This document shows, piece after piece, positions 27,721 through 53,399 of a stretch of 64,000 nt of DNA (its first letter is position 1; every line of letters starts with the position of its first letter). The notes under the pieces were generated by a model. The model searched no databases and was not told the origin of the DNA. It saw only the letters and a list, made by a program, of their open reading frames with translations. This stretch comes from Paralichthys olivaceus (lineage: Eukaryota > Chordata > Actinopteri > Pleuronectiformes > Paralichthyidae), in contig NC_091108.1 in the NCBI RefSeq assembly GCF_024713975.1, positions 1,284,501 through 1,348,500 on the forward strand, given 5' to 3'. The position numbers and the translations under genes were made by a program.

Positions 27721-28305
27721 GAGTGTTTGTGTTGTGACTTCAGGTTGGAGGTGAGACAAGAAACTGTGTGAGTGTGTGCGAGGCGGAATGAGACTGGTGG
27801 TGGGTCAACAGGTGTTTTATGAGGGATATAACAAAGTACATTTACTTTGTTGCTGTACGTCAATATATTCGTCACGTGTTTCTACTTTACTTGAGTAGAA
27901 AAACAAGAAACCGTGGATTTAACAACTGTGTTATTTATTTAAAAATTCAGCTTTGTCACACATTTGATGCAGTTTTTATTTGTTTGAGAAATATGAAAGG
28001 ATATTTGCATAACTCAGGATCAATACAGGTTCTAAAACATCCCAGAAGCTTATTTCTACATTGATTCAGAAAACAACAGCAACATTAGTTCTTTCAAACA
28101 CATTCATGTCAGTGTCATTATAGATTCTGTCTTTACAAAGTGAGACTGAACATCTGGGATGAAGGAGGGCCAGTGTTTGATTGACAGCTGATCTCTGTGC
28201 GGAGCAGAAACGTCACCACGACGAACTTTGAGCAACAAACATGGAGACAAAAGAAGTTCAAGATTTAAACACAGAATCTAAATCACTGCTTTTAATGACT
28301 CCAGA

Positions 28306-29979
28306 CTATTTGAGTTTACACAACTCAGCTGAGGATCCATAATAAACCAGAACTCCAGCATAGAGAGGCTGAGTGAATGTGGTCTGGACTCTGTGGAGGA
28401 GAGTCATGGTGTCAGAGACGCTGTAGAAGGACAGAACACCTGCACTGTGATCCAGGTACACTCCTACTCTGGAGGACGGAGGACCTGACACTGGAGTCTG
28501 GATGCTGTTGTGATAAAAGTTATAACTTTTTTTATAGCAATATAACCTCCAAGATTTATCATTGAATCCAAATCTACAGTCATCTGACCTCCCTGCTCTG
28601 TTGATATTCTTGTATGTGACTGCTACACCAACTCCTCCTCTTCTCTCCACCTCCACCTCCCAGTAACAACGTCCAGTCAGACTCTCTCTACTCAGGACCT
28701 GAAACCAACCAGTGAATCTGTCTGGATGATCAGGATAAAACTGTTCTTCACTCATTCTTGTCACTTTTCTGTTTCCCTCAGATAATAACAGTTCTTTGTG
28801 TGCTGTGTTTGGATCCAGTGTGATTTCCTGTGAATATTTGAAGAAGTCAGCTCTGGTCTTGGGCTCTGGTTGTGGCAGTAAAACATCCACTTGAGACACA
28901 ATCTGTAAAATCTTTGTCTCTGTCTCACTCAGAATGTCCTGTAGTCGACCTCTGACCTGTGACACAGCTGCTGTCACGTCCTCAAAGTTCCTCAGAGGAC
29001 GGATCCTGATGCTGGATGAGTGTGTAGATTCACTGAGTGACAGTGAGGGGGGGTAGTTGAGTAGAAACTGGATGTGATCCTCTGTGTGTGAGAGCTGCTT
29101 CAGTTCATCGTCTCTCCTCTTCAGCTCAGTGATCTCCTGCTCCAGTTTCTCCTGAAGCTCTTTGACTCGACTCACTTCAGTTTCCTGCTGGGATCTGATC
29201 TGCTGCTTCACATCAGAGCTTCTTTTCTCCAGCAGACGGATCAGCTCAGTGAAGATCTTCTCACTGTCCTCCACTGCTTTATCAGCAGAGCGGTTGACGG
29301 CCTCCTCCTCCTGTTGAAGCAGCTTCACATCTTTCTCTCTGTCCTGGAGTCTCTGCTGGATCGTTTGTCTCCTCGGCCCGAGCTCTCTCTGCCTCTCAGT
29401 CATTTCTGCTGCAGCTGTGACTGTGTCGTGGTCTTTATGTTGATCCACAGAGCAGAGATAACAGATACACTGCTGATCAGTGCGGCAGAACATCTTCATC
29501 ACCTCATCGTGACGAGAGCAGATGTTCTCCTGGAGCTTCTCGGAGGGCTCCACCAGCTTGTGCTTCTTAAATGGAGGTGACTGAAAATGAGGCTGGAGGT
29601 GTTTTTCACAATAAGAGGCCAAACAATCCAAACAGGACTTGAGAGCTTTGAGTTTTCTCCCAGTGCAGAAATCACAGGCCACATCTTCAGGTCCAGCATA
29701 GCAGTGATCAGCAGGAGCAGCTTGGAGTCCAGTCTTCTTCAGCTCCTCCACTAAATCAGCTAACATGGTGCTTTTCACCAGGACAGGCCTCAGTGTGAAG
29801 GTCTCTCTACACTGAGGACAGCTGTAGATTCCTCTCTGATCCTCATTGTCCCAGTGGGTTTTAATACAGCTCATACAGTAGCTGTGTCCACAGCCAATAG
29901 TCACTGGATCCTTCAGTAGATCCAGACAGATCGAACAAGAGAATCTTTCTCCGTCCAGTTGATTTTCTTGCTGCGCCAT
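28306..29979 (-). CDS. TRIM E3 ligase, array copy 1 (TRIM16-like/finTRIM-like), intronless
   Basis: 557 codons in one exon. RING of C3HC4 type: C15, C18, C30, H32, C35, C38, C54, C57 (CGHSYCMSC). B-box 1 is at about 102-131 (CDFC...CLDCLASYCEKH) and B-box 2 at about 154-186 (CSRHDEVMKMFC...CYLCSVDQHKDH). A coiled coil spans about 195-305 (TIQQRLQDREKDVKLLQQEE onward). PRY-SPRY runs from about 372 to the end (LDPNTAHKELLLSEGNRKV; GRCYWEVEVE; VGVYLDHSAGVLSFYSVSD). By family: a cytoplasmic ubiquitin ligase whose SPRY recognises targets; teleost expansions of such TRIMs are linked to antiviral defence. Specific to this copy: VEVE insertion, CYKKSYNFY loop and GVLVYYGSS end. Homology with the other units stops left of about 28014, so its poly(A) signal must be outside the repeat (TTTATT near 27933). 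Confidence 0.95.
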   Translation of the reverse strand: MAQQENQLDGERFSCSICLDLLKDPVTIGCGHSYCMSCIKTHWDNEDQRGIYSCPQCRETFTLRPVLVKSTMLADLVEELKKTGLQAAPADHCYAGPEDVACDFCTGRKLKALKSCLDCLASYCEKHLQPHFQSPPFKKHKLVEPSEKLQENICSRHDEVMKMFCRTDQQCICYLCSVDQHKDHDTVTAAAEMTERQRELGPRRQTIQQRLQDREKDVKLLQQEEEAVNRSADKAVEDSEKIFTELIRLLEKRSSDVKQQIRSQQETEVSRVKELQEKLEQEITELKRRDDELKQLSHTEDHIQFLLNYPPSLSLSESTHSSSIRIRPLRNFEDVTAAVSQVRGRLQDILSETETKILQIVSQVDVLLPQPEPKTRADFFKYSQEITLDPNTAHKELLLSEGNRKVTRMSEEQFYPDHPDRFTGWFQVLSRESLTGRCYWEVEVERRGGVGVAVTYKNINRAGRSDDCRFGFNDKSWRLYCYKKSYNFYHNSIQTPVSGPPSSRVGVYLDHSAGVLSFYSVSDTMTLLHRVQTTFTQPLYAGVLVYYGSSAELCKLK

Positions 29980-32251: not shown

Positions 32252-33919
32252 CTATTTGAGTTTACACAACTCAGCTGAGCATCCAGAATTAAAAAACCCA
32301 ACTCCAGCATAGAGAGGCTGAGTGAATGTGGTCTGGACTCTGTGGAGGAGAGTCATGGTGTCAGAGACGCTGTAGAAGGACAGAACACCTGCACTGTGAT
32401 CCAGGTACACTCCTACTCTGGAGGACAGAGGACCTGACACTGGAGTCTGGATGCTGTTGTGATAGAAGATATAAATGTTTCCAAAACAATCTAACCTCCA
32501 AGATTTATCATTGATTCCAAATCTACATTCATCTGACCCCCCTGCTCTGTTGATATTCTTGTATGTGACTGCTATAGTAACTACTCCTCTTCTCTCCACC
32601 TCCCAGTAACAACGTCCAGTCAGACTCTCTCTACTCAGGACCTGAAGCCAATAAGTGAATCTGTCTGGATGATCAGAATAAAACTGTTTTTTACTCACTA
32701 ATGTCACTTTTCTGTTTCCCTCAGATAATAACAGACGTTTGTTTGCTGTGTTTGGATCCAGTGTGATTTCCTGTGAATATTTGAAGAAGTCAGCTCTGGT
32801 CTTGGGCTCTGGTTGTGGCAGTAAAACATCCACTTGAGACACAATCTGTAAAATCTTTGTCTCTGTCTCACTCAGAATGTCCTGTAGTCGACCTCTGACC
32901 TGTGACACAGCTGCTGTCACGTCCTCAAAGTTCCTCAGAGGACGGATCCTGATGCTGGATGAGTGTGTAGATTCACTGAGTGACAGTGAGGGGTAGTTGA
33001 GTAGAAACTGGATGTGATCCTCTGTGTGTGAGAGCTGCTTCAGTTCATCGTCTCTCCTCTTCAGCTCAGTGATCTCCTGCTCCAGTTTCTCCTGAAGCTC
33101 TTTGACTCGACTCACTTCAGTTTCCTGCTGGGATCTGATCTGCTGCTTCACATCAGAGCTTCTTTTCTCCAGCAGACGGATCAGCTCAGTGAAGATCTTC
33201 TCACTGTCCTCCACTGCTTTATCAGCAGAGCGGTTGACGGCCTCCTCCTCCTGTTGAAGCAGCTTCACATCTTTCTCTCTGTCCTGGAGTCTCTGCTGGA
33301 TCGTTTGTCTCCTCGGCCCGAGCTCTCTCTGCCTCTCAGTCCTTTCTGCTGCAGCTGTGACTGTGTCGTGGTCTTTATGTTCATCCACAGAGCAGAGATA
33401 ACAGATACACTGCTGATCAGTGCGGCAGAACATCTTCTTCACCTCATCGTGACGAGAGCAGATGTTCTCCTGGAGCTTCTCGGAGGGCTCCACCAGCTTG
33501 TGCTTCTTAAATGGAGGTGACTGAAAATGAGGCTGGAGGTGTTTTTCACAATAAGAGGCCAAACAAACCAAACAGGACTTGAGAGCTTTGAGTTTTCTCC
33601 CAGTGCAGACGTCACAGGCCACATCTTCAGGTCCAGCATAGCAGTGATCAGCAGGAGCAGCTTGGAGTCCAGTCTTCTTCAGCTCCTCCACGAAATCAGC
33701 TATCATGGCGTTTTTCACCAGGACAGGCCTCAGTGCGAAGATCTCTCTACACTGAGGACATCTGTAGATTCCTCTCTCATCCTGATCGTCCCAGTGGGTT
33801 TTAATACAGTTCATACAGTAGCTGTGTCCACAGCCAATAGTCACTGGATCCTTCAGTAGTTCCAGACAGATCGAACAAGAGAATCTTTCTCTGTTCGGTT
33901 GATTTTCTTGCTGCGCCAT
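32252..33919 (-). CDS. TRIM E3 ligase, array copy 2, intronless
   Basis: 555 codons, uninterrupted; RING, two B-boxes, coiled coil and PRY-SPRY as in copy 1, with all zinc ligands kept. The RING end is the most diverged of copies 1-5: NRERFSCSICLELL, CMNCIKTHWDDQDERGIYRC and LVKNAMIADFVEELK. SPRY is of the ANKRLLLSEG / LVSKKQFYSDHPDRFTYW / DCFGNIYIFY / GFFNSGCSAELC type, shared with copies 3 and 4. The poly(A) signal is probably at 31799-31804. Its upstream flank has lost about 120 bp relative to copy 1, including half of the ISRE-like site, so its regulation may differ. Confidence 0.95.
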   Translation of the reverse strand: MAQQENQPNRERFSCSICLELLKDPVTIGCGHSYCMNCIKTHWDDQDERGIYRCPQCREIFALRPVLVKNAMIADFVEELKKTGLQAAPADHCYAGPEDVACDVCTGRKLKALKSCLVCLASYCEKHLQPHFQSPPFKKHKLVEPSEKLQENICSRHDEVKKMFCRTDQQCICYLCSVDEHKDHDTVTAAAERTERQRELGPRRQTIQQRLQDREKDVKLLQQEEEAVNRSADKAVEDSEKIFTELIRLLEKRSSDVKQQIRSQQETEVSRVKELQEKLEQEITELKRRDDELKQLSHTEDHIQFLLNYPSLSLSESTHSSSIRIRPLRNFEDVTAAVSQVRGRLQDILSETETKILQIVSQVDVLLPQPEPKTRADFFKYSQEITLDPNTANKRLLLSEGNRKVTLVSKKQFYSDHPDRFTYWLQVLSRESLTGRCYWEVERRGVVTIAVTYKNINRAGGSDECRFGINDKSWRLDCFGNIYIFYHNSIQTPVSGPLSSRVGVYLDHSAGVLSFYSVSDTMTLLHRVQTTFTQPLYAGVGFFNSGCSAELCKLK

Positions 33920-36079
33920 TTCACCTGCTGCCAGTGACTGTAGAATAGTTTCACAAAGAAAGGAGCCAAAGAAATATCCTGACTGGGAGGAGCTGGTTGT
34001 GTTTGAGAGCAGGAAGAAGTTTTACTACATTTCTCTACCATGAGCTAATTGGGAGTTTTTTATCTGTGTCATCACATTTCAAAGTGAATGTTTGCACAGG
34101 GAGCTGTCACATTCAGCTCACAACAGCACAGGTTGGAACATTATTCACGTTTCAAAGTCTCCAGAAAGTCAATAAAGTTTTTAAGTGGAATAAAAACAAA
34201 CTTACAAAGTGCTTCACACATGAAAAACACAAGTACAAATACATGGAAACCCACTAATGGAAGAGTAAAAGTATAAAAACTCTACAGGTGACAGAAATGT
34301 AATCATGAACAACCTTTACAGTAATACTATCAGGGTACGATGACGCCACCCAACTCACAAACCAACCAGAATACCTCAACCCAACCCATAACCTAGCAAA
34401 CCAACAGACTGACAAGTCACAGACCACAAATCAACCAACAACCCAACAACTAACCAAAAAACAATCCACAACCCAACCAACTGACCAAACCAAACAACAG
34501 ACCAACAAACCACAACCCAACCTACAGCCCAACCAACAAACCCACCGACAAACCCAGAACCCAACTCATCAGCTGCAGTGAGGAAATATATGGACACAGT
34601 AGAACTGGGTGTGTACGAAGACGGAGGTTTATCAGGCTTTTCCACATTCCAGTAAGAGAAGCAGCACTTTACAAAAAAGACTTGGTTCAACTACTTTGGG
34701 TTTGTTGACGACTTTGTTCCTTTAGTTTTAGTGACATTTGAAAACAGAGACAAACTGTCATGTGAGAGAAGAGCCTCCTACAGAGGCTGGATTTGTATAT
34801 TTATCTAGAGTCATTCATTCCTTGGAAAATAGTTTGAACATGTTTAAGTGGAATTCTCTCTGCATCATTTCACCTCTCAGTGATAATGACCGTCTGAGTT
34901 GCTCTGTGTTAGAAGTGGAACTCTGAGCTCCTGTCGGCTCTGGCACATCACCACATGTTGGTTCATCTCCAAGTTGTGATGTGAAGGGAAGAGAGTGAGG
35001 AAATAAATGGAGAGAACAGAGCTGACTGTGTTTCAAAGTATGAGGAAGATGGAGGCTTATCAAGCTGCTTCACAGTCCGGTAAGAGGAGCAGCACTTTAC
35101 GATGAAGACTAGATCACAACTTTGATTCGATGTTGGTTGTATAATACATGTTGACACGTTTGGGTTGTTGATGACTTTGTTCCTTTAACTTTAGTTCCAT
35201 TGAACTTGTTCTTAGTTAAAACACTGAAGGACTAGATTGGTCCTCAGCAGAGCCCCTCCTCATCTGGAACTATGCATTGTTCAAAACATCGAACCGTTGA
35301 CGTGATGAAACCGCCATTAAAATTTAAATCCTGGCTCCGCCCCCTTGAACCAACAAATTGCCAGAATTTTCTAAACAGTGATCAATAATATTTAAATGAT
35401 TTATTAAGTAAGAACCTTTTGGATTTAGAGCTTTGAATGATGATTCAAGAAGCAGCATGAGGAGAAGAGCAAGTCCGAGCACAAACGGGGAACGTTTGAG
35501 TACAAGTGCTGGGTCTTAAAGAGAGCATTATGACATTTGTTGTGAAATCAATAAGTCTCGATCTGAAACTGAAAGACCACGCTCCGAAATAAAGAGAAGA
35601 GACAAATATATGAAACAACGTTATTCTTTATTCAAACCTTCAGTTTGTTCACACGTTTCATCAGTAGAGTCGGTTCAATGACTCTTGATCTCATGGAAAC
35701 ATTCACTTCATCCACACAGTCAGTTTGTTTCACCTCCATCTCACAGGAGGAAAAGAAAAGAACAAATAATCAGCTCATTGATTATGATCAGGATCAATAC
35801 AGGTTCTAAAACATCCCAGAAGCTTATTTCTACATTGATTCAGAAAACAACAGCAACATTAGTTCTTTCAAACACATTCATGTCAGTGTCATTATAGATT
35901 CTGTCTTTACAAAGTGAGACTGAACATCTGGGATGAAGGAGGGCCAGTGTTTGATTGACAGCTGATCTCTGTGCGGAGCAGAAACGTCACCACGACGAAC
36001 TTTGAGCAACAAACATGGAGACAAAAGAAGTTCAAGATTTAAACACAGAATCTAAATCACTGCTTTTAAAGACTCCAGA
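33920..36079. other. Array spacer 2 (TRIM copies 2-3)
   Basis: Same order as spacer 1: shortened promoter side, CCAAC-rich tract (about 34346-34570), two module copies, 3' flank of copy 3 with AATAAA on its strand at 35627-35632. The 1,273-bp element is absent here too (empty site near 34793-34806). Confidence 0.75.
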
Positions 36080-37750
36080 CTATTTGAGTTTACACAACTC
36101 AGCTGAGCATCCAGAATTAAAAAACCCAACTCCAGCATAGAGAGGCTGAGTGAATGTGGTCTGGACTCTGTGGAGGAGAGTCATGGTGTCAGAGACGCTG
36201 TAGAAGGACAGAACACCTGCACTGTGATCCAGGTACACTCCTACTCTGGAGGACGGAGGACCTGACACTGGAGTCTGGATGCTGTTGTGATAGAAGATAT
36301 AAATGTTTCCAAAACAATCTAACCTCCAAGATTTATCATTGATTCCAAATCTACATTCATCTGACCTCCCTGCTCTGTTGATATTCTTGTATGTGACTGC
36401 TACACTAACTCCTCCTCTTCTCTCCACCTCCCAGTAACAACGTCCAGTCAGACTCTCTCTACTCAGGACCTGAAGCCAATAAGTGAATCTGTCTGGATGA
36501 TCAGAATAAAACTGTTTTTTACTCACTAATGTCACTTTTCTGTTTCCCTCAGATAATAACAGACGTTTGTTTGCTGTGTTTGGATCCAGTGTGATTTCCT
36601 GTGAATATTTGAAGAAGTCAGCTCTGGTCTTGGGCTCTGGTTGTGGCAGTAAAACATCCACTTGAGACACAATCTGTAAAATCTTTGTCTCTGTCTCACT
36701 CAGAATGTCCTGTAGTCGACCTCTGACCTGTGACACAGCTGCTGTCACGTCCTCAAAGTTCCTCAGAGGACGGATCCTGATGCTGGATGAGTGTGTAGAT
36801 TCACTGAGTGACAGTGAGGGGGGGTAGTTGAGTAGAAACTGGATGTGATCCTCTGTGTGTGAGAGCTGCTTCAGTTCATCGTCTCTCCTCTTCAGCTCAG
36901 TGATCTCCTGCTCCAGTTTCTCCTGAAGCTCTTTGACTCGCCTCACTTCAGTTTCCTGCTGGGATCTGATCTGCTGCTTCACATCAGAGCTTCTTTTCTC
37001 CAGCAGACGGATCAGCTCAGTGAAGATCTTCTCACTGTCCTCCACTGCTTTATCAGCAGAGCGGTTGACGGCCTCCTCCTCCTGTTGAAGCAGCTTCACA
37101 TGTTTCTCTCTGTCCTGGAGTCTCTGCTGGATCGTTTGTCTCCTCGGCCCGAGCTCTCTCTGCCTCTCAGTCCTTTCTGCTGCAGCTGTGACTGTGTCGT
37201 GGTCTTTATGTTGATCCACAGAGCAGAGATAACAGATACACTGCTGATCAGTGCGGCAGAACATCTTCTTCACCTCATTGTGACGAGAGCAGATGTTCTC
37301 CTGGAGCTTCTCGGAGGGCTCCACCAGCTTGTGCTTCTTAAATGGAGGTGACTGAAAATGAGGCTGGAGGTGTTTTTCACAATAAGAGGCCAAACAAACC
37401 AAACAGGACTTGAGAGCTTTGAGTTTTCTCCCAGTGCAGAAATCACAGGCCACATCTTCAGGTCCAGCATAGCAGTGATCAGCAGGAGCAGCTTGGAGTC
37501 CAGTCTTCTTCAGCTCCTCCACTAAATCAGCTATCAGGATGTTTTTCACCGGGACAGGCCTCAGTGCGAAGGTCTCTCTACACTGAGGACAGCTGTAGAT
37601 TCCTCTCTCATCCTCATTGTCCCAGTGGGTTTTAATACAGCTCATACAGTAGCTGTGTCCACAGCCAATAGTCACTGGATCCTTCAGTAGATCCAGACAG
37701 ATCGAACAAGAGAATCTTTCTCCGTCCAGTTGATTTTCTTGCTGCGCCAT
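36080..37750 (-). CDS. TRIM E3 ligase, array copy 3, intronless
   Basis: 556 codons, uninterrupted. RING C3HC4 intact; the linker differs (LRPVPVKNILIADLV). B-box 1 reads CDFC...CLVC, B-box 2 CSRHNEVKKMFC. The coiled coil has REKHVKLLQQ, shared only with copy 4, and TEVRRVKELQ, unique. SPRY is close to copies 2 and 4 (DCFGNIYIFY; GFFNSGCSAELC) but with RGGVSVAVTY. The only copy with a full ISRE match just upstream of the ATG. Probable poly(A) signal 35627-35632. Role as for copy 1; target unknown. Confidence 0.95.
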   Translation of the reverse strand: MAQQENQLDGERFSCSICLDLLKDPVTIGCGHSYCMSCIKTHWDNEDERGIYSCPQCRETFALRPVPVKNILIADLVEELKKTGLQAAPADHCYAGPEDVACDFCTGRKLKALKSCLVCLASYCEKHLQPHFQSPPFKKHKLVEPSEKLQENICSRHNEVKKMFCRTDQQCICYLCSVDQHKDHDTVTAAAERTERQRELGPRRQTIQQRLQDREKHVKLLQQEEEAVNRSADKAVEDSEKIFTELIRLLEKRSSDVKQQIRSQQETEVRRVKELQEKLEQEITELKRRDDELKQLSHTEDHIQFLLNYPPSLSLSESTHSSSIRIRPLRNFEDVTAAVSQVRGRLQDILSETETKILQIVSQVDVLLPQPEPKTRADFFKYSQEITLDPNTANKRLLLSEGNRKVTLVSKKQFYSDHPDRFTYWLQVLSRESLTGRCYWEVERRGGVSVAVTYKNINRAGRSDECRFGINDKSWRLDCFGNIYIFYHNSIQTPVSGPPSSRVGVYLDHSAGVLSFYSVSDTMTLLHRVQTTFTQPLYAGVGFFNSGCSAELCKLK

Positions 37751-37777: not shown

Positions 37778-37791
37778 AGTTTCACTTTCTC
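37778..37791 (-). promoter_or_regulatory. Full-consensus ISRE upstream of TRIM copy 3
   Basis: On the gene's strand: GAGAAAGTGAAACT, which fits the interferon-stimulated response element (A/G)NGAAANNGAAACT at every position. It lies 28 bp before the ATG, so either the 5' leader is very short or the site lies in a leader or an unrecognised upstream intron. Confidence 0.55.
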
Positions 37792-38739: not shown

Positions 38740-40012
38740 TGTAGCCCCCTCACTCAATTCCTATGTTGTAACACAACCCTTGTGATTACACACTCTGTAC
38801 TTTAAACACCTGTTTTGCATGGAGAGGAAAAGGGGATGGCGACAAATATAAACTGGGAGTTGTGCACAAAAATATGATTCAAAATCAAGGTGCAAAGAGG
38901 CCCAGTTAGCTTATAATATAGCTAAACTGTGTGTGGGAGCTTTAACTCCCATGCTTCACACTTACTCAACTATAGCTCCTGACTGTTCCACATGAATCAC
39001 ATTATCCTACAATGAAATGGCTTACATAACTGTTAAACATGGATCACCCTCAAACACACAGATGGATTGCAAAAAATATCACAGCATTTATTTCAAACCC
39101 CCAAACAAATAAAATAAGCAATTTAAAAAAAATAATACCCGGGATTTTCTAACTCAGTCTATGGTACCATGTTCGTTGGCGCGCTGTTGGAGCTCATGTG
39201 TAACCCTCCGGTGGAGAATTGTTCGTAAACCCCCGATCCCGCAGCGAGCAGAAGGAAGAAGAAACGCTCTGTCCACGTGCACCAAGTCCCTGGCGGCAAG
39301 TCCTGAGCACCTGTACTGCAGCAGCATGAGCGGCAATGTCCGAAGCACACTAACATTAAAAGTCAAGACCTCAAATGAATACACTGTTAGAAAACCAGAA
39401 ATGTGCGTAACTTTAGCGTCCACAACCTCAATACTCACGCAGACACTTGGGAATAAACCCAGGCTTCCCACGTGCAGCCTGACGCAGGCCTCCTCCGATC
39501 CTGTGAAGACGCACGCTAGTCAGCTGACGCGGTTCCACGTGCTAACAGTAACAGCTAATTTAGCAACAACACTCAGTCAAACGTCTCCCAACACGACTCA
39601 CACTGCGGCTGGTTGAGGTTCCACAGAGTCTGGGTCTTATTTCTTATTAATACTGTATTTACAAAGAGTAACAGGAACGTAGAGCAGCTACCATCCTCTC
39701 TCTCTGTCCTCGTGCTTCTTCACGCTCTGTCTCGTCTTGTCTGAACTAAGTCCTATCCTACCCTAACTTGATTGATTGACACCTGTCTATCAAATAAAAC
39801 TAACTGAAAACGGACATGAGAAGTTCAAGGTCTGTTCTTGATGTGGGATATTTGAACATCTTAACAACAATACACAGATTCCCATATTGATGCAGAAATT
39901 AAACCGCATAAGTAATAAATGAGGTAGTATTTCACAAAATCAGCAGAAGGATAAACCTACATTACAGATATCAAAGTACTACAGTGTGAACTAAAATCAG
40001 CAGGGCACTACA
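38740..40012. mobile_element. TG...CA element, probable solo LTR (first array copy)
   Basis: Begins TGTAGCCCCC and ends GGGCACTACA: a five-base inverted end TGTAG/CTACA of LTR type. The flanks are TGTA (left, in place of TATA) and TATA (right), and the empty site in spacers 1-2 has a single TATA, so a 4-bp target duplication is likely. Length 1,273 bp. No internal retroviral or Gypsy coding region is attached, so a solo LTR is the best reading. Family and orientation undetermined. A fossil, amplified by the TRIM duplications rather than by new insertion. Confidence 0.6.
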
Positions 40013-41296: not shown

Positions 41297-42964
41297 CTAT
41301 TTGAGTTTACACAACTCAGCTGAGCATCCAGAATTAAAAAACCCAACTCCAGCATAGAGAGGCTGAGTGAATGTGGTCTGGACTCTGTGGAGGAGAGTCA
41401 TGGTGTCAGAGACGCTGTAGAAGGACAGAACACCTGCACTGTGATCCAGGTACACTCCTACTCTGGAGGACAGAGGACCTGACACTGGAGTCTCGATGCT
41501 GTTGTGATAGAAGATATAAATGTTTCCAAAACAATCTAACCTCCAAGATTTATCATTGATTCCAAATCTACATTCATCTGACCTCCCTGCTCTGTTGATA
41601 TTCTTGTATGTGACTGCTATAGTAACTCTTCCTCTTCTCTCCACCTCCCAGTAACAACGTCCAGTCAGACTCTCTCTACTCAGGACCTGAAGCCAATAAG
41701 TGAATCTGTCTGGATGATCAGAATAAAACTGTTTTTTACTCACTAATGTCACTTTTCTGTTTCCCTCAGATAATAACAGACGTTTGTTTGCTGTGTTTGG
41801 ATCCAGTGTGATTTCCTGTGAATATTTGAAGAAGTCAGCTCTGGTCTTGGGCTCTGGTTGTGGCAGTAAAACATCCACTTGAGACACAATCTGTAAAATC
41901 TTTGTCTCTGTCTCACTCAGAATGTCCTGTAGTCGACCTCTGACCTGTGACACAGCTGCTGTCACGTCCTCAAAGTTCCTCAGAGGACGGATCCTGATGC
42001 TGGATGAGTGTGTAGATTCACTGAGTGACAGTGAGGGGTAGTTGAGTAGAAACTGGATGTGATCCTCTGTGTGTGAGAGCTGCTTCAGTTCATCGTCTCT
42101 CCTCTTCAGCTCAGTGATCTCCTGCTCCAGTTTCTCCTGAAGCTCTTTGACTCGACTCACTTCAGTTTCCTGCTGGGATCTGATCTGCTGCTTCACATCA
42201 GAGCTTCTTTTCTCCAGCAGACGGATCAGCTCAGTGAAGATCTTCTCACTGTCCTCCACTGCTTTATCAGCAGAGCGGTTGACGGCCTCCTCCTCCTGTT
42301 GAAGCAGCTTCACATGTTTCTCTCTGTCCTGGAGTCTCTGCTGGATCGTTTGTCTCCTCGGCCCGAGCTCTCTCTGCCTCTCAGTCCTTTCTGCTGCAGC
42401 TGTGACTGTGTCGTGGTCTTTATGTTCATCCACAGAGCAGAGATAACAGATACACTGCTGATCAGTGCGGCAGAACATCTTCATTACCTCATCGTGACGA
42501 GAGCAGATGTTCTCCTGGAGCTTCTCGGAGGGCTCCACCAGCTTGTGCTTCTTAAATGGAGGTGACTGAAAATGAGGCTGGAGGTGTTTTTCACAATAAG
42601 AGGCCAAACAATCCAAACAGGACTTGAGAGCTTTGAGTTTTCTCCCAGTGCAGACGTCACAGGCCACATCTTCAGGTCCAGCATAGCAGTGATCAGCAGG
42701 AGCAGCTTGGAGTCCAGTCTTCTTCAGCTCCTCCACTAAATCAGCTAACATGGTGCTTTTCACCAGGACAGGCCTCAGTGCGAAGGTCTCTCTACACTGA
42801 GGACAGCTGTAGATTCCTCTCTGATCCTCATTGTCCCAGTGGGTTTTAATACAGCTCATACAGTAGCTGTGTCCACAGCCAATAGTCACTGGATCCTTCA
42901 GTAGATCCAGACAGATCGAACAAGAGAATCTTTCTCCGTCCAGTTGATTTTCTTGCTGCGCCAT
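41297..42964 (-). CDS. TRIM E3 ligase, array copy 4, intronless
   Basis: 555 codons, uninterrupted. The N-terminal half resembles copy 1 (ETFALRPVLVKSTMLADLV; CLDCLASYC; CSRHDEVMKMFC), but B-box 1 has CDVC, B-box 2 SVDEHKDH (as copy 2) and the coiled coil REKHVKLL (as copy 3). SPRY is of the copy 2/3 type with RGRVTIAVTY and SIETPVSGPLSS. This patchwork points to exchange between copies. Zinc ligands intact. Probable poly(A) signal 40844-40849. Confidence 0.95.
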   Translation of the reverse strand: MAQQENQLDGERFSCSICLDLLKDPVTIGCGHSYCMSCIKTHWDNEDQRGIYSCPQCRETFALRPVLVKSTMLADLVEELKKTGLQAAPADHCYAGPEDVACDVCTGRKLKALKSCLDCLASYCEKHLQPHFQSPPFKKHKLVEPSEKLQENICSRHDEVMKMFCRTDQQCICYLCSVDEHKDHDTVTAAAERTERQRELGPRRQTIQQRLQDREKHVKLLQQEEEAVNRSADKAVEDSEKIFTELIRLLEKRSSDVKQQIRSQQETEVSRVKELQEKLEQEITELKRRDDELKQLSHTEDHIQFLLNYPSLSLSESTHSSSIRIRPLRNFEDVTAAVSQVRGRLQDILSETETKILQIVSQVDVLLPQPEPKTRADFFKYSQEITLDPNTANKRLLLSEGNRKVTLVSKKQFYSDHPDRFTYWLQVLSRESLTGRCYWEVERRGRVTIAVTYKNINRAGRSDECRFGINDKSWRLDCFGNIYIFYHNSIETPVSGPLSSRVGVYLDHSAGVLSFYSVSDTMTLLHRVQTTFTQPLYAGVGFFNSGCSAELCKLK

Positions 42965-43957: not shown

Positions 43958-45230
43958 TGTAGCCCCCTCACTCAATTCCTATGTTGTAACACAACCCTTG
44001 TGATTACACACTCTGTACTTTAAACGCCTGTTTTGCGTGGAGAGGAAAAGGGGATGGCGACAAATATAAACTGGGAGTTGTGCACAAAAATATGATTCAA
44101 AATCAAGGTGCAAAGAGGCCCAGTTAGCTTATAATATAGCTAAACTGTGTGGGGGAGCTTTAACTCCCATGCTTCACACTTACTCAACTATAGCTCCTGA
44201 CTGTTCCACATGAATCACATTATCCTACAATGAAATGGCTTACATAACTGTTAAACATGGATCACCCTCAAACACACAGATGGATTGCAAAAAATATCAC
44301 AGCATTTATTTCAAACCCCCAAACAAATAAAATAAGCAATTAAAAAAAAATAATACCCGGGATTTTCTAACTCAGTCTATGGTACCATGTTCGTTGGCGC
44401 GCTGTTGGAGCTCATGTGTAACCCTCCGGTGGAGAATTGTTCGTAAACCCCCGATCCCGCAGCGAGCAGAAGGAAGAAGAAACGCTCTGTCCACGTGCAC
44501 CAAGTCCCTGGCGGCAAGTCCTGAGCACCTGTACTGCAGCAGCATGAGCGGCAATGTCCGAAGCACACTAACATTAAAAGTCAAGACCTCAAATGAATAC
44601 ACTGTTAGAAAACCAGAAATGTGCGTAACTTTAGCGTCCACAACCTCAATACTCACGCAGACACTTGGGAATAAACCCAGGCTTCCCACGTGCAGCCTGA
44701 CGCAGGCCTCCTCCGATCCTGTGAAGACGCACGCTAGTCAGCTGACGCGGTTCCACGTGCTAACAGTAACAGCTAATTTAGCAACAACACTCAGTCAAAC
44801 GTCTCCCAACACGACTCACACTGCGGCTGGTTGAGGTTCCACAGAGTCTGGGTCTTAATTCTTATCAATACTGTATTTACAAAGAGTAACAGGAACGTAG
44901 AGCAGCTACCATCCTCTCTCTCTGTCCTCGTGCTTCTTCACGCTCTGTCTCGTCTTGTCTGAACTAAGTCCTATCCTACCCTAACTTGATTGATTGACAC
45001 CTGTCTATCAAATAAAACTAACTGAAAACGGACATGAGAAGTTCAAGGTCTGTTCTTGATGTGGGATATTTGAACATCTTAACAACAATACACAGATTCC
45101 CATATTGATGCAGAAATTAAACCGCATAAGTAATAAATGAGGTAGTATTTCACAAAATCAGCAGAAGGATAAACCTACATTACAGATATCAAAGTACTAC
45201 AGTGTGAACTAAAATCAGTAGGGCACTACA
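43958..45230. mobile_element. TG...CA element, probable solo LTR (second array copy)
   Basis: Exactly the same length (1,273 bp), ends and insertion point as the copy at 38740-40012, with only scattered base differences. It was therefore copied with the TRIM unit. Right flank TATA. Confidence 0.6.
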
Positions 45231-46514
45231 TATATTTATCTAGAGCCATTCATTCCTTGGAAAATAGTTTGAACATGTTTAAATGGAATTCTCTCTGCAT
45301 CATTTCACCTCTCAGTGATAATGAGCGTCTGAGTTGCTCTGTATTAGAAGTGGAACTCTGAGCTCCTGTCGGCTCTGGCACATCACCACATGTTGGTTCA
45401 TCTCCAAGTTGTGATGTGAAGGGAAGAGAGTGAGGAAATAAACGGAGAGAACAGAGCTGACTGTGTTTCAAAGTATGAAGAAGATGGAGGCTTATCAAGC
45501 TGCTTCACAGTCCGGTAAGAGGAGCAGCACTTTACGATGAAGACTAGATCACAACTTTGATTCGATGTTGGTTGTATAATACATGTTGACACGTTTGGGT
45601 TGTTGATGACTTTGTTCCTTTAACTTTAGTTCCATTGAACTTGTTCCTAGTTAAAACACTGAAGGACTAGATTGGTCCTCAGCAGAGCCCCTCCTCATCT
45701 GGAACTATGCATTGTTCAAAACATCGAACCGTTCACGTGATGAAACCGCCATTAAAATTTAAATCCTGGCTCCGCCCCCTTGAACCAACAAAATGCCAGA
45801 ATTTTCTAAACAGTGATCAATAATATTTAAATGATTTATTAAGTAAGAACCTTTTGGATTTAGAGCTTTGAATGATGATTGAAGAAGCAGCATGAGGAGA
45901 AGAGCAAGTCCGAGCACAAACGGGGAACGTTTGAGTACAAGTGCTGGGTCTTAAAGAGAGCATTATGACATTTGTTGTGAAATCAATAAGTCTCGATCTG
46001 AAACTGAAAGACCACGCTCCGAAATAAAGAGAAGAGACAAATATATGAAACAACGTTATTCTTTATTCAAACCTTCAGTTTGTTCACACGTTTCATCAGT
46101 AGAGTCGGTTCAATGACTCTTGATCTCATGGAAACATTCACTTCATCCACACAGTCAGTTTGTTTCACCTCCATCTCACAGGAGGAAAAGAAAAGAACAA
46201 ATAATCAGCTCATTGATTATGATCAGGATCAATACAGGTTCTAAAACATCCCAGAAGCTTATTTCTACATTGATTCAGAAAACAACAGCAACATTAGTTC
46301 TTTCAAACACATTCATGTCAGTGTCATTATAGATTCTGTCTTTACAAAGTGAGACTGAACATCTGGGATGAAGGAGGGCCAGTGTTTGATTGACAGCTGA
46401 TCTCTGTGCGGAGCAGAAACGTCACCACGACGAACTTTGAGCAACAAACATGGAGACAAAAGAAGTTCAAGATTTAAACACAGAATCTAAATCACTGCTT
46501 TTAAAGACTCCAGT

Positions 46515-48182
46515 CTATTTGAGTTTACACAACTCAGCTGAGGATCCATAATTAAAAACCCCAACTCCAGCATAGAGAGGCTGAGTGAATGTGGTCTGGA
46601 CTCTGTGGAGGAGAGTCATGGTGTCAGAGACTCTGTAGAAGGACAGAACACCTGCACTGTGATCCAGGTACACTCCTACTCTGGAGGACGGAGGACCTGA
46701 GACTGGAGTCTGGATGCTGTTGTGATAAAAGATATAAATGTTTCCATCATGATATAATGACCAAGATTTATCATTGGATCCAAATAGACATTCATGTGAC
46801 CCCCCTGCTCTGTTGATATTCTTGTATGTGACTGCTACAGTAACTCCTCCTCTTCTCTCCACCTCCCAGTAACAACGTCCAGTCAGACTCTCTCTACTCA
46901 GGACCTGAGACCAACCAGTGAATCTGTCTGGATGATCAGAATAAAACTGTTCTTCACTCATTAATGTCACTTTTCTGTTTCCCTCAGATAATAACAGTTC
47001 TTTGTGTGCTGTGTTTGGATCCAGTGTGATTTGCTGTGAATATTTGAAGAAGTCAGCTCTGGTCTTGGGCTCTGGTTGTGGCAGTAAAACATCCACTCGA
47101 GACACAATCTGTAAAATCTTTGTCTCTGTCTCACTCAGAATGTCCTGTAGTCGACCTCTGACCTGTGACACAGCTGCTGTCACGTCCTCAAAGTTCCTCA
47201 GAGGACGGATCCTGATGCTGGATGAGTGTGTAGATTCACTGAGTGACAGTGAGGGGTAGTTGAGTAGAAACTGGATGTGATCCTCTGTGTGTGAGAGCTG
47301 CTTCAGTTCATCGTCTCTCCTCTTCAGCTCAGTGATCTCCTGCTCCAGTTTCTCCTGAAGCTCTTTGACTCGACTCACTTCAGTTTCCTGCTGGGATCTG
47401 ATCTGCTGCTTCACATCAGAGCTTCTTTTCTCCAGCAGACGGATCAGCTCAGTGAAGATCTTCTCACTGTCCTCCACTGCTTTATCAGCAGAGCGGTTGA
47501 CGGCCTCCTCCTCCTGTTGAAGCAGCTTCACATCTTTCTCTCTGTCCTGGAGTCTCTGCTGGATCGTTTGTCTCCTCGGCCCGAGCTCTCTCTGCCTCTC
47601 AGTCATTTCTGCTGCAGCTGTGACTGTGTCGTGGTCTTTATGTTGATCCACAGAGCAGAGATAACAGATACACTGCTGATCAGTGCGGCAGAACATCTTC
47701 ATCACCTCATCGTGACGAGAGCAGATGTTCTCCTGGAGCTTCTCGGAGGGCTCCACCAGCTTGTGCTTCTTAAATGGAGGTGACTGAAAATGAGGCTGGA
47801 GGTGTTTTTCACAATAAGAGGCCAAACAAACCAAACAGGACTTGAGAGCTTTCAGTTTTCTCCCAGTGCAGACGTCACAGGCCACATCTTCAGGTCCAGC
47901 ATAGCAGTGATCAGCAGGAGCAGCTTGGAGTCCAGTCTTCTTCAGCTCCTCCACGAAATCAGCTAACATGGTGCTTTTCACCAGGACAGGCCTCAGTGCG
48001 AAGATCTCTCTACACTGAGGACAGCTGTAGATTCCTCTCTGATCCTCATTGTCCCAGTGGGTTTTAATACAGCTCATACAGTAGCTGTGTCCACAGCCAA
48101 TAGTCACTGGATCCTTCAGTAGATCCAGACAGATCGAACAAGAGAATCTTTCTCCGTCCAGTTGATTTTCTTGCTGCGCCAT
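46515..48182 (-). CDS. TRIM E3 ligase, array copy 5, intronless
   Basis: 555 codons, uninterrupted. The linker combines EIFALRPVLVK with STMLADFVEELK; B-box 1 CDVC...CLVC; AAAEMTERQ as in copy 1. SPRY is its own type: AHKELLLSEG and MSEEQFYSDHPDRFTGWSQV (near copy 1), then SHECLFGSNDKSWSLYHDGN and GVFNYGSSAELC. It also has QIVSRVDVLL and FYRVSDTMTL, not seen in the others. Zinc ligands intact. Probable poly(A) signal 46062-46067. Confidence 0.95.
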   Translation of the reverse strand: MAQQENQLDGERFSCSICLDLLKDPVTIGCGHSYCMSCIKTHWDNEDQRGIYSCPQCREIFALRPVLVKSTMLADFVEELKKTGLQAAPADHCYAGPEDVACDVCTGRKLKALKSCLVCLASYCEKHLQPHFQSPPFKKHKLVEPSEKLQENICSRHDEVMKMFCRTDQQCICYLCSVDQHKDHDTVTAAAEMTERQRELGPRRQTIQQRLQDREKDVKLLQQEEEAVNRSADKAVEDSEKIFTELIRLLEKRSSDVKQQIRSQQETEVSRVKELQEKLEQEITELKRRDDELKQLSHTEDHIQFLLNYPSLSLSESTHSSSIRIRPLRNFEDVTAAVSQVRGRLQDILSETETKILQIVSRVDVLLPQPEPKTRADFFKYSQQITLDPNTAHKELLLSEGNRKVTLMSEEQFYSDHPDRFTGWSQVLSRESLTGRCYWEVERRGGVTVAVTYKNINRAGGSHECLFGSNDKSWSLYHDGNIYIFYHNSIQTPVSGPPSSRVGVYLDHSAGVLSFYRVSDTMTLLHRVQTTFTQPLYAGVGVFNYGSSAELCKLK

Positions 48183-48211
48183 TTCACCTGCTGCCAGTGA
48201 CTGTAGAATAG

Positions 48212-48221
48212 TTTCACTTCC
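48212..48221 (-). promoter_or_regulatory. EICE-like site upstream of TRIM copy 5
   Basis: GGAAGTGAAACT on the gene's strand, 30 bp before the ATG. Confidence 0.45.
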
Positions 48222-49171
48222 TGTGAACAGAAACAGAGTCTCTGCTCCTCCCCCTCTGGTTCATTCCTGCAGTGACTCATCTCCCACAGTTCACGTCTTG
48301 TTCACTGATTCTTACACTGACACGTCTGTGACGGGAGGAGACAAAGAAATATCCTGACTGGGAGGAGCTGGTTGTGTTTGAGAGCAGGAAGAAGTTTTAC
48401 TACATTTCTCTACCATGAGCTGTTTGGGAGTTTTTTATCTGTGTCATCACATTTAAAAGTGAATGTTTGCACAGGGAGCTGTCACATTCAGCTCACAACA
48501 GCACAGGTTGGAACATTATTCACGTTTCAAAGTTTCCAGAAAGTCAATAAAGTTTTTAAGTGGAATAAAAACAAACTTACAAAGTGCTTCACACATGAAA
48601 AACACAAGTACAAATACATGGAAACCCACTAATGGGAGAGTAAAAGTATAAAAACTCTACAGGTGACAGAAATGTAATCATGAACAACCTTTACAGTAAT
48701 ACTATCAGGGTACGATGACGCCCAACTCACAAACCAACCAAAATACCTCAACCCAACCCATAACCTAGCAAACCAACAGACTGACAAGTCACAGACCACA
48801 AATCAACCAACAACCCAACAACTAACCAAAAAACAATCCACAACCCAACCAACTGACCAAACCAAACAACAGACCAACAAACCACAACCCAACTTACAGC
48901 CCAACCAACAAACCCACCGACAAACCCAGAACCCAACTCATCAGCTGCAGTGAGGAAATATATGGACAAAGTAGAACTGGGTGTGTACGAAGACGGAGGT
49001 TTATCAGGCTTTTCCACATTCCAGTAAGAGAAGCAGCACTTTACAAAAAAGACTTGGTTCAACTACTTTGGGTTTGTTGACGACTTTGTTCCTTTAGTTT
49101 TAGTGACATTTGAAAACAGAGACAAACTGTCATGTGAGAGAAGAGCCTCCTACAGAGGCTGGATTTGTATA

Positions 49172-50444
49172 TGTAGCCCCCTCACTCAATTCCTATGTTG
49201 TAACACAACCCTTGTGATTACACACTCTGTACTTTAAACACCTGTTTTGCATGGAGAGGAAAAGGGGATGGCGACAAATATAAACTGGGAGTTGTGCACA
49301 AAAATATGATTCAAAATCAAGGTGCAAAGAGGCCCAGTTAGCTTATAATATAGCTAAACTGTGTGTGGGAGCTTTAACTCCCATGCTTCACACTTACTCA
49401 ACTATAGCTCCTGACTGTTCCACATGAATCACATTATCCTACAATGAAATGGCTTACATAACTGTTAAACATGGATCACCCTCAAACACACAGATGGATT
49501 GCAAAAAATATCACAGCATTTATTTCAAACCCCCAAACAAATAAAATAAGCAATTAAAAAGAAATAATACCCGGGATTTTCTAACTCAGTCTATGGTACC
49601 ATGTTCGTTGGCGCGCTGTTGGAGCTCATGTGTAACCCTCCGGTGGAGAATTGTTCGTAAACCCCCGATCCCGCAGCGAGCAGAAGGAAGAAGAAACGCT
49701 CTGTCCACGTGCACCAAGTCCCTGGCGGCAAGTCCTGAGCACCTGTACTGCAGCAGCATGAGCGGCAATGTCCGAAGCACACTAACATTAAAAGTCAAGA
49801 CCTCAAATGAATACACTGTTAGAAAACCAGAAATGTGCGTAACTTTAGCGTCCACAACCTCAATACTCACGCAGACACTTGGGAATAAACCCAGGCTTCC
49901 CACGTGCAGCCTGACGCAGGCCTCCTCCGATCCTGTGAAGACGCACGCTAGTCAGCTGACGCGGTTCCACGTGCTAACAGTAACAGCTAATTTAGCAACA
50001 ACACTCAGTCAAACGTCTCCCAACACGACTCACACTGCGGCTGGTTGAGGTTCCACAGAGTCTGGGTCTTAATTCTTATTAATACTGTATTTACAAAGAG
50101 TAACAGGAACGTAGAGCAGCTACCATCCTCTCTCTCTGTCCTCGTGCTTCTTCACGCTCTGTCTCGTCTTGTCTGAACTAAGTCCTATCCTACCCTAACT
50201 TGATTGATTGACACCTGTCTATCAAATAAAACTAACTGAAAACGGACATGAGAAGTTCAAGGTCTGTTCTTGATGTGGGATATTTGAACATCTTAACAAC
50301 AATACACAGATTCCCATATTGATGCAGAAATTAAACCGCATAAGTCATAAATGAGGTAGTATTTCACAAAATCAGCAGAAGGATAAACCTACATTACAGA
50401 TATCAAAGTACTACAGTGTGAACTAAAATCAGCAGGGCACTACA
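49172..50444. mobile_element. TG...CA element, probable solo LTR (third array copy)
   Basis: Same 1,273-bp length and insertion point as the two others. Here both flanks keep the TATA duplication (49168-49171 and 50445-50448), which makes the LTR-type insertion clearest. Confidence 0.65.
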
Positions 50445-51728
50445 TATATTTATCTAGAGCCATTCATTCCTTGGAAAATAGTTTGAACATGTTTAAATGG
50501 AATTCTCTCTGCATCATTTCACCTCTCAGTGATAATGACCGTCTGAGTTGCTCTGTGTTAGAAGTGGAACTCTGAGCTCCTGTCGGCTCTGGCACATCAC
50601 CACATGTTGGTTCATCTCCAAGTTGTGATGTGAAGGGAAGAGAGTGAGGAAATAAACGGAGAGAACAGAGCTGACTGTGTTTCAAAGTATGAAGAAGATG
50701 GAGGCTTATCAAGCTTCTTCACAGTCCGGTAAGAGGAGCAGCACTTTACGATGAAGACTAGATCACAACTTTGATTCGATGTTGGTTGTATAATACATGT
50801 TGACACGTTTGGGTTGTTGATGACTTTGTTCCTTTAACTTTAGTTCCATTGAACTTGTTCTTCGTTAAAACACTGAAGGACTAGATTGGTCCTCAGCAGA
50901 GCCCCTCCTCATCTGGAACTATGCATTGTTCAAAACATCGAACCGTTCACGTGATGAAACCGCCATTAAAATGTAAATCCTGGCTCCGCCCCCTTGAACC
51001 AACAAAATGCCAGAATTTTCTAAACAGTGATCAATAATATTTAAATGATTTATTAAGTAAGAACCTTTTGGATTTAGAGCTTTGAATGATGATTGAAGAA
51101 GCAGCAGGAGGAGAAGAGCAAGTCCGAGCACAAACGGGGAACGTTTGAGTACAAGTGCTGGGTCTTAAAGAGAGCATTATGACATTTGTTGTGAAATCAA
51201 TAAGTCTCGATCTGAAACTGAAAGACCACGCTCCGAAATAAAGAGAAGAGACAAATATATGAAACAACGTTATTCTTTATTCAAACCTTCAGTTTGTTCA
51301 CACGTTTCATCAGTAGAGTCGGTTCAATGACTCTTGATCTCATGGAAACATTCACTTCATCCACACAGTCAGTTTGTTTCACCTCCATCTCACAGGAGGA
51401 AAAGAAAAGAACAAATAATCAGCTCATTGATTATGATCAGGATCAATACAGGTTCTAAAACATCCCAGAAGCTTATTTCTACATTGATTCAGAAAACAAC
51501 AGCAACATTAGTTCTTTCAAACACATTCATGTCAGTGTCATTATAGATTCTGTCTTTACAAAGTGAGACTGAACATCTGGGATGAAGGAGGGCCAGTGTT
51601 TGATTGACAGCTGATCTCTGTGCGGAGCAGAAACGTCACCACGACGAACTTTGAGCAACAAACATGGAGACAAAAGAAGTTCAAGATTTAAACACAGAAT
51701 CTAAATCACTGCTTTTAAAGACTCCAGA

Positions 51729-53399
51729 CTATTTGAGTTTACACAACTCAGCTGTAGATCCATAATTATAAACCTCAACTGCAGCATAGAGAGGCTGAGT
51801 GAATGTGGTCTGGACTCTGTGGAGGAGAGTCATGGTGTCAGAGACGCTGTAGAAGGACAGAACACCTGCACTGTGATCCAGGTACACTCCTACTCTGGAG
51901 GACGGAGGACCTGAGACTGGAGTCTGGAAGATGTTGTGACAAAATTTATAAATGTTTCCATCACAATATAACCTCCAAGATTTATCATTGAATCCAAATC
52001 TACATTTATCTGACCTCCCTGCTCTGTTGATATTCTTGTATGTGACTGCTACACTAACTCCTCCTCTCTCCACCTCCACCTCCCAGTAACACCGTCCAGT
52101 CAGACTCTCTCTACTCAGGACCTGAGGCCAATCAATGAATCTGTCTGGATGATCAGGATAAAACTGTTCTTCACTCATTAATGTCACTTTTCTGTTTCCC
52201 TCAGATAATAACAGACGTTTGTAAGCTGTGTTTGGATCCAGTGTGATTTCCTGTGGATATTTGAAGAAGTCATCTCTGGTCTTGGGCTCTGGTTGTGGCA
52301 GTAAAACATCCACTTGAGACACAATCTGTAAAATCTTTGTCTCTGTCTCACTCAGAATGTCCTGTAGTCGACCTCTGACCTGTGACACAGCTGCTGTCAC
52401 GTCCTCAAAGTTCCTCAGAGGACGGATCCTGATGCTGGATGAGTGTGTAGATTCACTGAGTGACAGTGAGGGGTAGTTGAGTAGAAACTGGATGTGATCC
52501 TCTGTGTGTGAGAGCTGCTTCAGTTCATCGTCTCTCCTCTTCAGCTCAGTGATCTCCTGCTCCAGTTTCTCCTGAAGCTCTTTGACTCGACTCACTTCAG
52601 TTTCCTGCTGGGATCTGATCTGCTGCTTCACATCAGAGCTTCTTTTCTCCAGCAGACGGATCAGCTCAGTGAAGATCTTCTCACTGTCCTCCACTGCTTT
52701 ATCAGCAGAGCGGCTGACGGCCTCCTCCTCCCGTTGAAGCAGCTTCACATCTTTCTCTCTGTCCTGGAGTCTCTGCTGGATCGTTTGTCTCCTCGGCCCG
52801 AGCTCTCTCTGCCTCTCAGTCCTTTCTGCTGCAGCTGTGACTGTGTCGTGGTCTTTATGTTGATCCACAGAGCAGAGATAACAGATACACTGCTGATCAG
52901 TGCGGCAGAACATCTTCTTCACCTCATCGTGACGAGAGCAGATGTTCTCCTGGAGCTTCTCGGAGGGCTCCACCAGCTTGTGCTTCTTAAATGGAGGTGA
53001 CTGAAAATGAGGCTGGAGGTGTTTTTCACAATAAGAGGCCAAACAATCCAAACAGGACTTGAGAGCTTTGAGTTTTCTCCCAGTGCAGAAATCACAGGCC
53101 ACATCTTCAGGTCCAGCATAGCAGTGATCAGCAGGAGCAGCTTGGAGTCCAGTCTTCTTCAGCTCCTCCACTAAATCAGCTATCAGGATGCTTTTCACCA
53201 GGACAGGCCTCAGTGCGAAGATCTCTCTACACTGAGGACATCTGTAGATTCCTCTCTGATCCTCATTGTCCCAGTGGGTTTTAATACAGCTCATACAGTA
53301 GCTGTGTCCACAGCCAATAGTCACTGGATCCTTCAGTAGATCCAGACAGATCGAACAGCAGAACGTTTCCTGATCCAGCTGAACTCCTCTTTGAGCCAT
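51729..53399 (-). CDS. TRIM E3 ligase, array copy 6 (array edge), intronless
   Basis: 556 codons, uninterrupted, same domain order. The first 14 codons differ from all others (MAQRGVQLDQETFCCSICLD versus MAQQENQLDGERFSCSICLD), and so does the whole upstream flank. Repeat homology therefore ends just inside the start of this gene. MAQxGVQLDQExF is the N-terminus I associate with this TRIM family elsewhere in teleosts, so copy 6 may keep the older 5' end. SPRY: AYKRLLLSEG, PDRFIDWPQV, VEVERGGVSV, GNIYKFCHNIFQ and VEVYNYGSTAELC. Unique coiled-coil change LLQREEEAVSRS. Probable poly(A) signal 51276-51281. Confidence 0.95.
   Translation of the reverse strand: MAQRGVQLDQETFCCSICLDLLKDPVTIGCGHSYCMSCIKTHWDNEDQRGIYRCPQCREIFALRPVLVKSILIADLVEELKKTGLQAAPADHCYAGPEDVACDFCTGRKLKALKSCLDCLASYCEKHLQPHFQSPPFKKHKLVEPSEKLQENICSRHDEVKKMFCRTDQQCICYLCSVDQHKDHDTVTAAAERTERQRELGPRRQTIQQRLQDREKDVKLLQREEEAVSRSADKAVEDSEKIFTELIRLLEKRSSDVKQQIRSQQETEVSRVKELQEKLEQEITELKRRDDELKQLSHTEDHIQFLLNYPSLSLSESTHSSSIRIRPLRNFEDVTAAVSQVRGRLQDILSETETKILQIVSQVDVLLPQPEPKTRDDFFKYPQEITLDPNTAYKRLLLSEGNRKVTLMSEEQFYPDHPDRFIDWPQVLSRESLTGRCYWEVEVERGGVSVAVTYKNINRAGRSDKCRFGFNDKSWRLYCDGNIYKFCHNIFQTPVSGPPSSRVGVYLDHSAGVLSFYSVSDTMTLLHRVQTTFTQPLYAAVEVYNYGSTAELCKLK

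Follow-up and report, generated by a model that had tools for sequence, protein, structure and literature searches.

A probable case of selected SPRY diversity on a homogenised scaffold in a young tandem TRIM gene array of Paralichthys olivaceus

Why do neighbouring gene copies that are almost identical over much of their length differ strongly in a single domain, and how old are those differences? This question is raised by a locus of Paralichthys olivaceus (RefSeq assembly GCF_024713975.1, contig NC_091108.1, positions 1,284,501 to 1,348,500 of the forward strand), a stretch of 64,000 nucleotides that we call the window and within which all positions below are counted. Between positions 28306 and 53399, six single-exon open reading frames (ORFs) encoding RING, B-box, coiled-coil and PRY-SPRY domains follow one another head to tail along the minus strand, and all six are open. 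We consider it likely that they form a young tandem array of TRIM25/TRIM16-like (finTRIM-like) E3 ligases, in which the scaffold has been homogenised and SPRY diversity has been selected.

We named the genes T1 (28306–29979, 557 aa), T2 (32252–33919, 555 aa), T3 (36080–37750, 556 aa), T4 (41297–42964, 555 aa), T5 (46515–48182, 555 aa) and T6 (51729–53399, 556 aa), so that reading along the minus strand T6 comes first and T1 last. The intervals between their low ends are 3946, 3828, 5217, 5218 and 5214 bp. Pfam models of RING, B-box, TRIM coiled-coil, PRY and SPRY were matched in that order above their cut-offs in all six copies, and six intact, intronless genes on one strand at these spacings, as claimed in the original prediction, were thus recovered. 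Pfam matches one B-box (150–188); the first B-box region is supported solely through an alignment of T6 with TRIM25. T2 to T6 share 92–95% protein identity with T1, and homology of the repeat extends on the minus strand from 28014 to 53405 (five periods plus one gene length) at 96.5–99.0% DNA identity.

We compared divergence along the repeat unit; the 3′ flank of T1 enters with 292 bp only, and upstream sequence comes from the other five copies, not from T6. The mean pairwise difference was 5.80% in PRY-SPRY codons 385–552 (66/504 sites segregating), compared with 0.53% in the coiled coil plus linker (8/582) and 0.14% in the gene end plus the first 560 bp of 3′ flank (2/581). Intermediate values were obtained for codons 1–190 (2.97%, 41/570), the distal upstream region (1.14%, 22/842) and the distal 3′ flank (1.30%, 20/724); the value for upstream positions –154 to –1 (6.65%) was not used, because it is inflated by a deletion in T2. 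With sites treated as independent, PRY-SPRY was more variable than the 3′ flank (P = 7e-21) and the distal 3′ flank (P = 5e-12). Variability was in turn lower in the 3′ flank than in its distal part (P = 0.0007), which could reflect either constraint on a 3′ untranslated region (UTR) or recent homogenisation. The SPRY domain is therefore a sharp island of divergence between a near-identical coiled coil and 3′ end, and the difference between SPRY types (~6–7%) is large relative to that of flanks and spacers (0.3–1.5%).

At the protein level, 41 PRY-SPRY codons vary in amino acid and four vary only synonymously (gap-free columns). The coiled coils had been described as nearly identical, in agreement with columns 191–352, which contain five amino-acid-variable and no synonymous-only codons. 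Variability had also been placed in the SPRY domain and in the RING-linker and B-box region; this holds for the SPRY domain and for the RING side, where 22 of the 27 variable codons of the N-terminal half fall in columns 4–76, and fails for the B-box, with four in columns 105–190. We further counted variable columns in SPRY blocks whose limits were set by hand from conserved motifs, gap columns being counted as variable, and whose names V1 to V3 we take to follow TRIM5 usage. The counts were 8/24 in the V1-like block, 5/12 at 445–456, 5/11 in the V2-like block, 12/20 in the V3-like block and 8/11 in the C-terminal loop, and only 2/43 at 499–541.

Nonsynonymous (pN) and synonymous (pS) proportions were computed by the Nei-Gojobori procedure and averaged over the 15 pairs of the six copies. 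For PRY-SPRY, pN was 0.0625 and pS 0.0321, a ratio of 1.94 (codon bootstrap 1.13–4.44), and among T1 to T5 alone the ratio was 2.86, with 2.67 for the whole coding sequence (CDS); amino-acid changes in the SPRY domain are thus commoner than synonymous ones, contrary to the outcome that would have refuted the original prediction. Codons 14–190 gave a ratio of 1.59, and in the coiled coil plus linker a pair of copies differed on average by 3.07 nonsynonymous changes and by no synonymous one. A one-omega codon likelihood test, with omega fixed at 1 as the null and a grid of seven kappa values, rejected neutrality for PRY-SPRY, where twice the log-likelihood difference (2dlnL) was 6.28 with six copies and 9.08 with T1 to T5; the corresponding values for the whole CDS were 8.32 and 14.68. 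For codons 14–190 of T1 to T5, 2dlnL was 2.01 (with a kappa of 2 for the fixed model).

Simulation (kappa 2, six copies) yielded 13.0 synonymous-only codons in PRY-SPRY, compared with the four observed (P = 0.0018), and simple neutral duplication was rejected on this shortage. The same comparison was not significant for codons 14–190 (3 versus 5.6, P = 0.155) or for the coiled coil plus linker (0 versus 2.1, P = 0.09). These results support the idea that amino-acid change outpaces synonymous change in PRY-SPRY, as would be expected under diversifying selection. The pattern of a young antiviral-type ligase expansion, which had been proposed for the locus, is supported as regards young tandem expansion and the amino-acid excess in the SPRY domain, and the excess in the RING-linker/B-box half was not significant; the term antiviral-type would follow from family resemblance.

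In the same simulations, 17 PRY-SPRY codons were changed at several sites, compared with 7.2 simulated. Such clustering, the replacement of whole codons and the in-frame indels within the SPRY domain, and the sharp borders of this domain against the near-identical coiled coil and 3′ flank might instead indicate that gene conversion brought in the SPRY types from TRIM or NLR-B30.2 loci that are more diverged and lie elsewhere in the genome, the island representing donor tracts that were then retained by selection. Strong selection by itself likewise clusters changes within codons, and we regard this import as a tentative possibility.

We further analyzed whether the copies share a single history. 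Among 41 informative sites, 361 of 820 pairs were incompatible, and incompatibility between neighbouring sites was below that of shuffled orders (P = 0.0045 in our own simplified recombination test). Four SPRY types were distinguished, namely those private to T1 (with a two-codon insertion and a one-codon deletion), T5 and T6, and type A, which is shared by T2, T3 and T4. Differences within type A amount to 4–5 of 516 sites, and those between types to 30–38 of 513–516. T4 differs from T1 at 5/570 sites in the N-terminal half and at 36/513 in PRY-SPRY (P = 6e-8), and from T5 at 6/570 in the N-terminal half; its SPRY domain is closer to that of T2 than its N-terminal half is (P = 0.008). Judged from these comparisons, the copies are recombination mosaics; in T4, the RING/B-box half is T1/T5-like and the SPRY domain T2/T3-like.

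Run tests along the whole CDS gave P < 0.05 in 8 of 15 pairs, although these are confounded by uneven rates. When six pairs were tested within the SPRY domain only, one result was clear (T1–T6, P = 0.003) and one weak (T5–T6, P = 0.027), so exchange within the SPRY domain is less certain than exchange between the N-terminal half and the SPRY domain. Mosaic structure and outsized SPRY divergence are both features beyond the original prediction. Private amino-acid changes of T2 are clustered between codons 8 and 46, and codons 1–14 of T6, like its upstream sequence, are unlike those of all other copies.

The spacers provide a scale against which the SPRY differences can be judged. Two of them are short, at 2272 and 2160 bp; the other three are long (3546, 3550 and 3546 bp) through one additional piece of ~1.26 kb with ends TGTAG...CTACA and flanking TATA, the left flank being TGTA in two of the three copies. 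This piece lies at 38744–40012 between T3 and T4 and at 43962–45230 between T4 and T5 (flanks TGTA and TATA in both), and at 49176–50444 between T5 and T6 (TATA on both sides); the short spacers carry a single TATA and no insert at this site. It is probably a non-autonomous DNA transposon, and since its ends and the target duplication have the anatomy of a DNA-transposon insertion, the short spacer would be the older form. The three insert copies differ pairwise by 0.32–0.55% and whole spacers by 0.76–1.53%. In the tree of spacers, which is close to star-like, the three insert-bearing spacers do not group together: they differ from each other by 0.76–0.82% (insert counted), and the short T1/T2 spacer differs from them by a similar 0.84–1.01%. 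Exchange, and not a simple duplication of blocks, may accordingly account for the spread of the insert.

The three SPRY types that adjoin these low-divergence spacers and inserts differ mutually at 33–38 of 516 sites. Moreover, synonymous-only change is more frequent in PRY-SPRY (four codons in ~115 sites) than in the coiled-coil synonymous sites, gene end and 3′ flank combined (2/710; P = 0.004). Apparently older synonymous sites in the SPRY domain and three SPRY types beside near-identical inserts suggest, on small counts, that the SPRY variants are older than the present units; they seem either to predate the present copies or to have been imported into them.

These data also bear on the possibility that the copies duplicated recently and that new SPRY mutations then came under strong positive selection, with neither old variants nor exchange involved. 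Such an account would agree with pN/pS and omega above 1, and the mostly small synonymous counts leave the difference in age less than firm. However, it is opposed by the greater synonymous divergence of PRY-SPRY than of its flanks, by the contrast of spacers and inserts with the SPRY types that adjoin them, and by the signal of recombination, and we judge it quite unlikely. We give a similarly low probability to a partial assembly artefact, in which alleles of a shorter array were laid out in tandem. Spacer differences of this size would fall within the allelic range of some fish; however, even the closest pair of spacers is 0.76% apart, the window contains no Ns, and a single ordered array is consistent with the four SPRY types, the two length classes of spacer and the edges, which are unique both upstream and downstream. 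The favoured interpretation is that the array looks like one in which the scaffold evolves in concert and the SPRY variants are kept, converted or exchanged, with diversifying selection at work.

Several observations weigh against this interpretation. The ratio pN/pS for codons 1–190 of all six copies is only 0.89, a low value attributable to the divergent start of T6, and codons 14–190 do not rise above neutrality (2dlnL of 2.84 with six copies, simulation P = 0.155). The one-omega tests assume one tree without recombination, which is false for this array, and synonymous counts are small. T4 and T3 show no significant difference between the N-terminal half and the SPRY domain (P = 0.10), the low 3′ value could reflect 3′ UTR constraint, the apparent surplus of old synonymous changes in the SPRY domain could stem from a hotspot of mutation or conversion, and donors outside the window that convert the SPRY domain would yield a similar pattern.

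The edges of the array suggest how it may have arisen. Homology upstream of T6 ends 6 bp before the start codon, beyond which its upstream sequence is unrelated to that of the other copies, and the 3′ flank of T1 is homologous to the others only to +292 after the stop codon. Unequal exchange between two neighbouring paralogues is the probable origin: T6 would have retained its own upstream sequence together with codons 1–14, the distal 3′ flank of T1 would likewise be original to that gene, and T2 to T5 would join a T1-type upstream to a T6-type downstream region. This junction anatomy is visible in the sequence, and the route to it is our reconstruction. We also considered a retrogene founding pair, as the segment shared by T1 and T6 spans –6 of the start to +292 past the stop. 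The lack of a poly-A tract at the 28014 edge and the distinct codons 1–14 of T6 led us tentatively to prefer paralogue exchange.

Under the favoured interpretation, repeated unequal exchange or gene conversion would then homogenise the coiled coil and 3′ end, selection for differing predicted PRY-SPRY surfaces would let old SPRY variants persist, and some of these would recombine onto other RING/B-box halves. In the proteins, the coiled coil likely dimerises and the variable SPRY loops likely bind a target, which, by analogy with the TRIM family, the RING might ubiquitinate, unless it modifies itself.

In a comparison of T6 with Protein Data Bank (PDB) chains, the two best molecules were TRIM25 (E = 6.5e-65) and TRIM16 (E = 4.6e-40); the RING, B-box and coiled coil of T6 align with human TRIM25 (4cfg) over 11–308, and its SPRY domain with TRIM16 (7qs3) over 368–541. 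TRIM25 and TRIM16 are not known to form arrays in human. The finTRIM (ftr) genes of teleosts form clusters of RBCC-B30.2 genes in the same orientation, with TRIM16 and TRIM25 as closest mammalian relatives and positive selection on B30.2 (van der Aa et al. 2009, PMC2657112), and finTRIMs are considered to have diverged from trim16 and trim25 (PMC6579814). The array is similar in its orientation (6/6 on the minus strand), in its best relatives (from T6 and PDB chains only) and in positive selection on B30.2 (by a codon test that does not model recombination).

Zebrafish finTRIMs have six exons, unlike the single-exon ORFs of the array; however, the entire ORF lies in one exon in 47 of 55 medaka finTRIM genes (PMC2657112), so the six-exon form does not define finTRIMs across teleosts. 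Selected sites in zebrafish finTRIMs number six in region 1, one in region 2 and six in region 3 (PMC2657112); the weight on V1 and V3 is similar in the array, whereas its V2-like and C-terminal blocks are more variable. The array differs further in that the weaker RING/B-box selection reported for finTRIMs is not significant here, and in having a SPRY domain that stands as a sharp island beside an almost invariant coiled coil and 3′ end.

Other fish families show related behaviour. Among nearly 400 zebrafish NLR-B30.2 genes, gene conversion differs between the NACHT scaffold and B30.2, and there is evidence of positive selection on B30.2, although the scaffold there is that of an NLR and not, as in the array, of a TRIM protein (PMC4852459). 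The btr and trim35/hltr genes of zebrafish and pufferfish are likewise multiplied RBCC-B30.2 genes with positive selection on B30.2, and with recombination breakpoints in the B30.2 of btr; btr derives from trim39 and hltr is related to trim35 (PMC3137616), whereas the array SPRY domain (in T6) best matches TRIM16 among solved chains. As far as these sources go, the family, the single-exon form, B30.2 selection and differing conversion of scaffold and B30.2 are already in print (PMC2657112, PMC3137616, PMC4852459). The array closely resembles the published finTRIMs, as well as the gene conversion of zebrafish NLR-B30.2 genes, and stands out through the unusual sharpness of its SPRY island and through an internal clock that can be put to use.

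In this compact and fully sequenced array, the shared insert offers a rough clock by which SPRY diversity owed to new mutation can be told apart from that owed to retained old variants or to exchange; where fish families run to dozens or hundreds of copies, such a distinction is more difficult. In addition, four natural SPRY types on one near-constant scaffold are suited to direct comparisons of binding. None of the titles and abstract openings listed from the open-licence literature describes this array, which is not proof of absence. For relatives outside the window, pattern matching returned 31 stretches in viral_contigs and 41 in genome_contigs, none of which was confirmed, in collections without fish proteins.

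The RING domain also varies, at columns 71 (T/A/I), 72 (M/L), 73 (L/I) and 76 (L/F), which align with T67, V68, L69 and V72 of TRIM25 when the pairing is extended from the T6–TRIM25 alignment. In a study of TRIM25, T67 is a ubiquitin contact, V68, L69 and V72 belong to the core of the RING dimer, and E10 is required for activity (PMC4864278). In the dimer-core columns of the array, one hydrophobic residue replaces another. Within the region of RING codons 6–12, the position of E10 is R in T1 to T5 and T in T6, that of E9 is an invariant E, and that of L7 is D or N; given the changes at E10 and L7, the N-terminal helix need not work as it does in TRIM25.

A more speculative idea, which we hold to be improbable, is that the locus is a germline reassortment device, in which the homogenised coiled coil and 3′ end would act as recombination tracks, SPRY cassettes and, separately, RING-linker variants would be reshuffled into new ligases, and the co-varying RING columns 71–73 and 76 may set which copies pair.

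Further differences were found in the flanks of individual copies. It had been stated that none of the genes is a pseudogene, and all ORFs are indeed open; yet T2 lacks, just upstream of its start codon (minus strand, at 33954–33961), 112–118 bp (by MAFFT or BLAST) that are missing or replaced there and present in T1, T3, T4 and T5 at about –154 to –36. The sequence GAAANNGAAA, which we take to be interferon-response-like, occurs upstream of T3 (37780–37789, about –39 to –30), and GGAANNGAAA, presumably PU.1/IRF-like, occurs at –39 in T1, T4 and T5; T2 has neither there. As regards induction by virus or interferon, a finTRIM trait, these motifs would be leads only. Downstream, AATAAA/ATTAAA signals are located at +448 and +675 in T2 to T6, and a T1-specific base creates an ATTAAA poly-A-like signal at 28291–28296 (+10 to +15 past the stop codon). 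Near the left edge of the array, a 33-bp tandem repeat of 8.8 copies (97% match) spans 27189–27477.

Outside the array, the window contains 296 stop-to-stop stretches of at least 55 aa, of which 20 were compared with Pfam. Among these 20 were plus-strand PH, MyTH4 and FERM pieces at 745–4286, and minus-strand RINGv (12476–12967), C2H2 (24044–26162) and LisH (62745–63119) pieces, the neighbouring genes being presumably MYO10, MARCHF11, ZNF622 and RANBP9/10. No Rfam family at the gathering threshold and no tRNA was found in the window. Arrays of a 15-base unit with a TAAAGTATT core occur at 55624–56248, 21653–21759 and 15228–15266, and a minus-strand ORF of 217 aa with unusual composition lies at 15141–15794.

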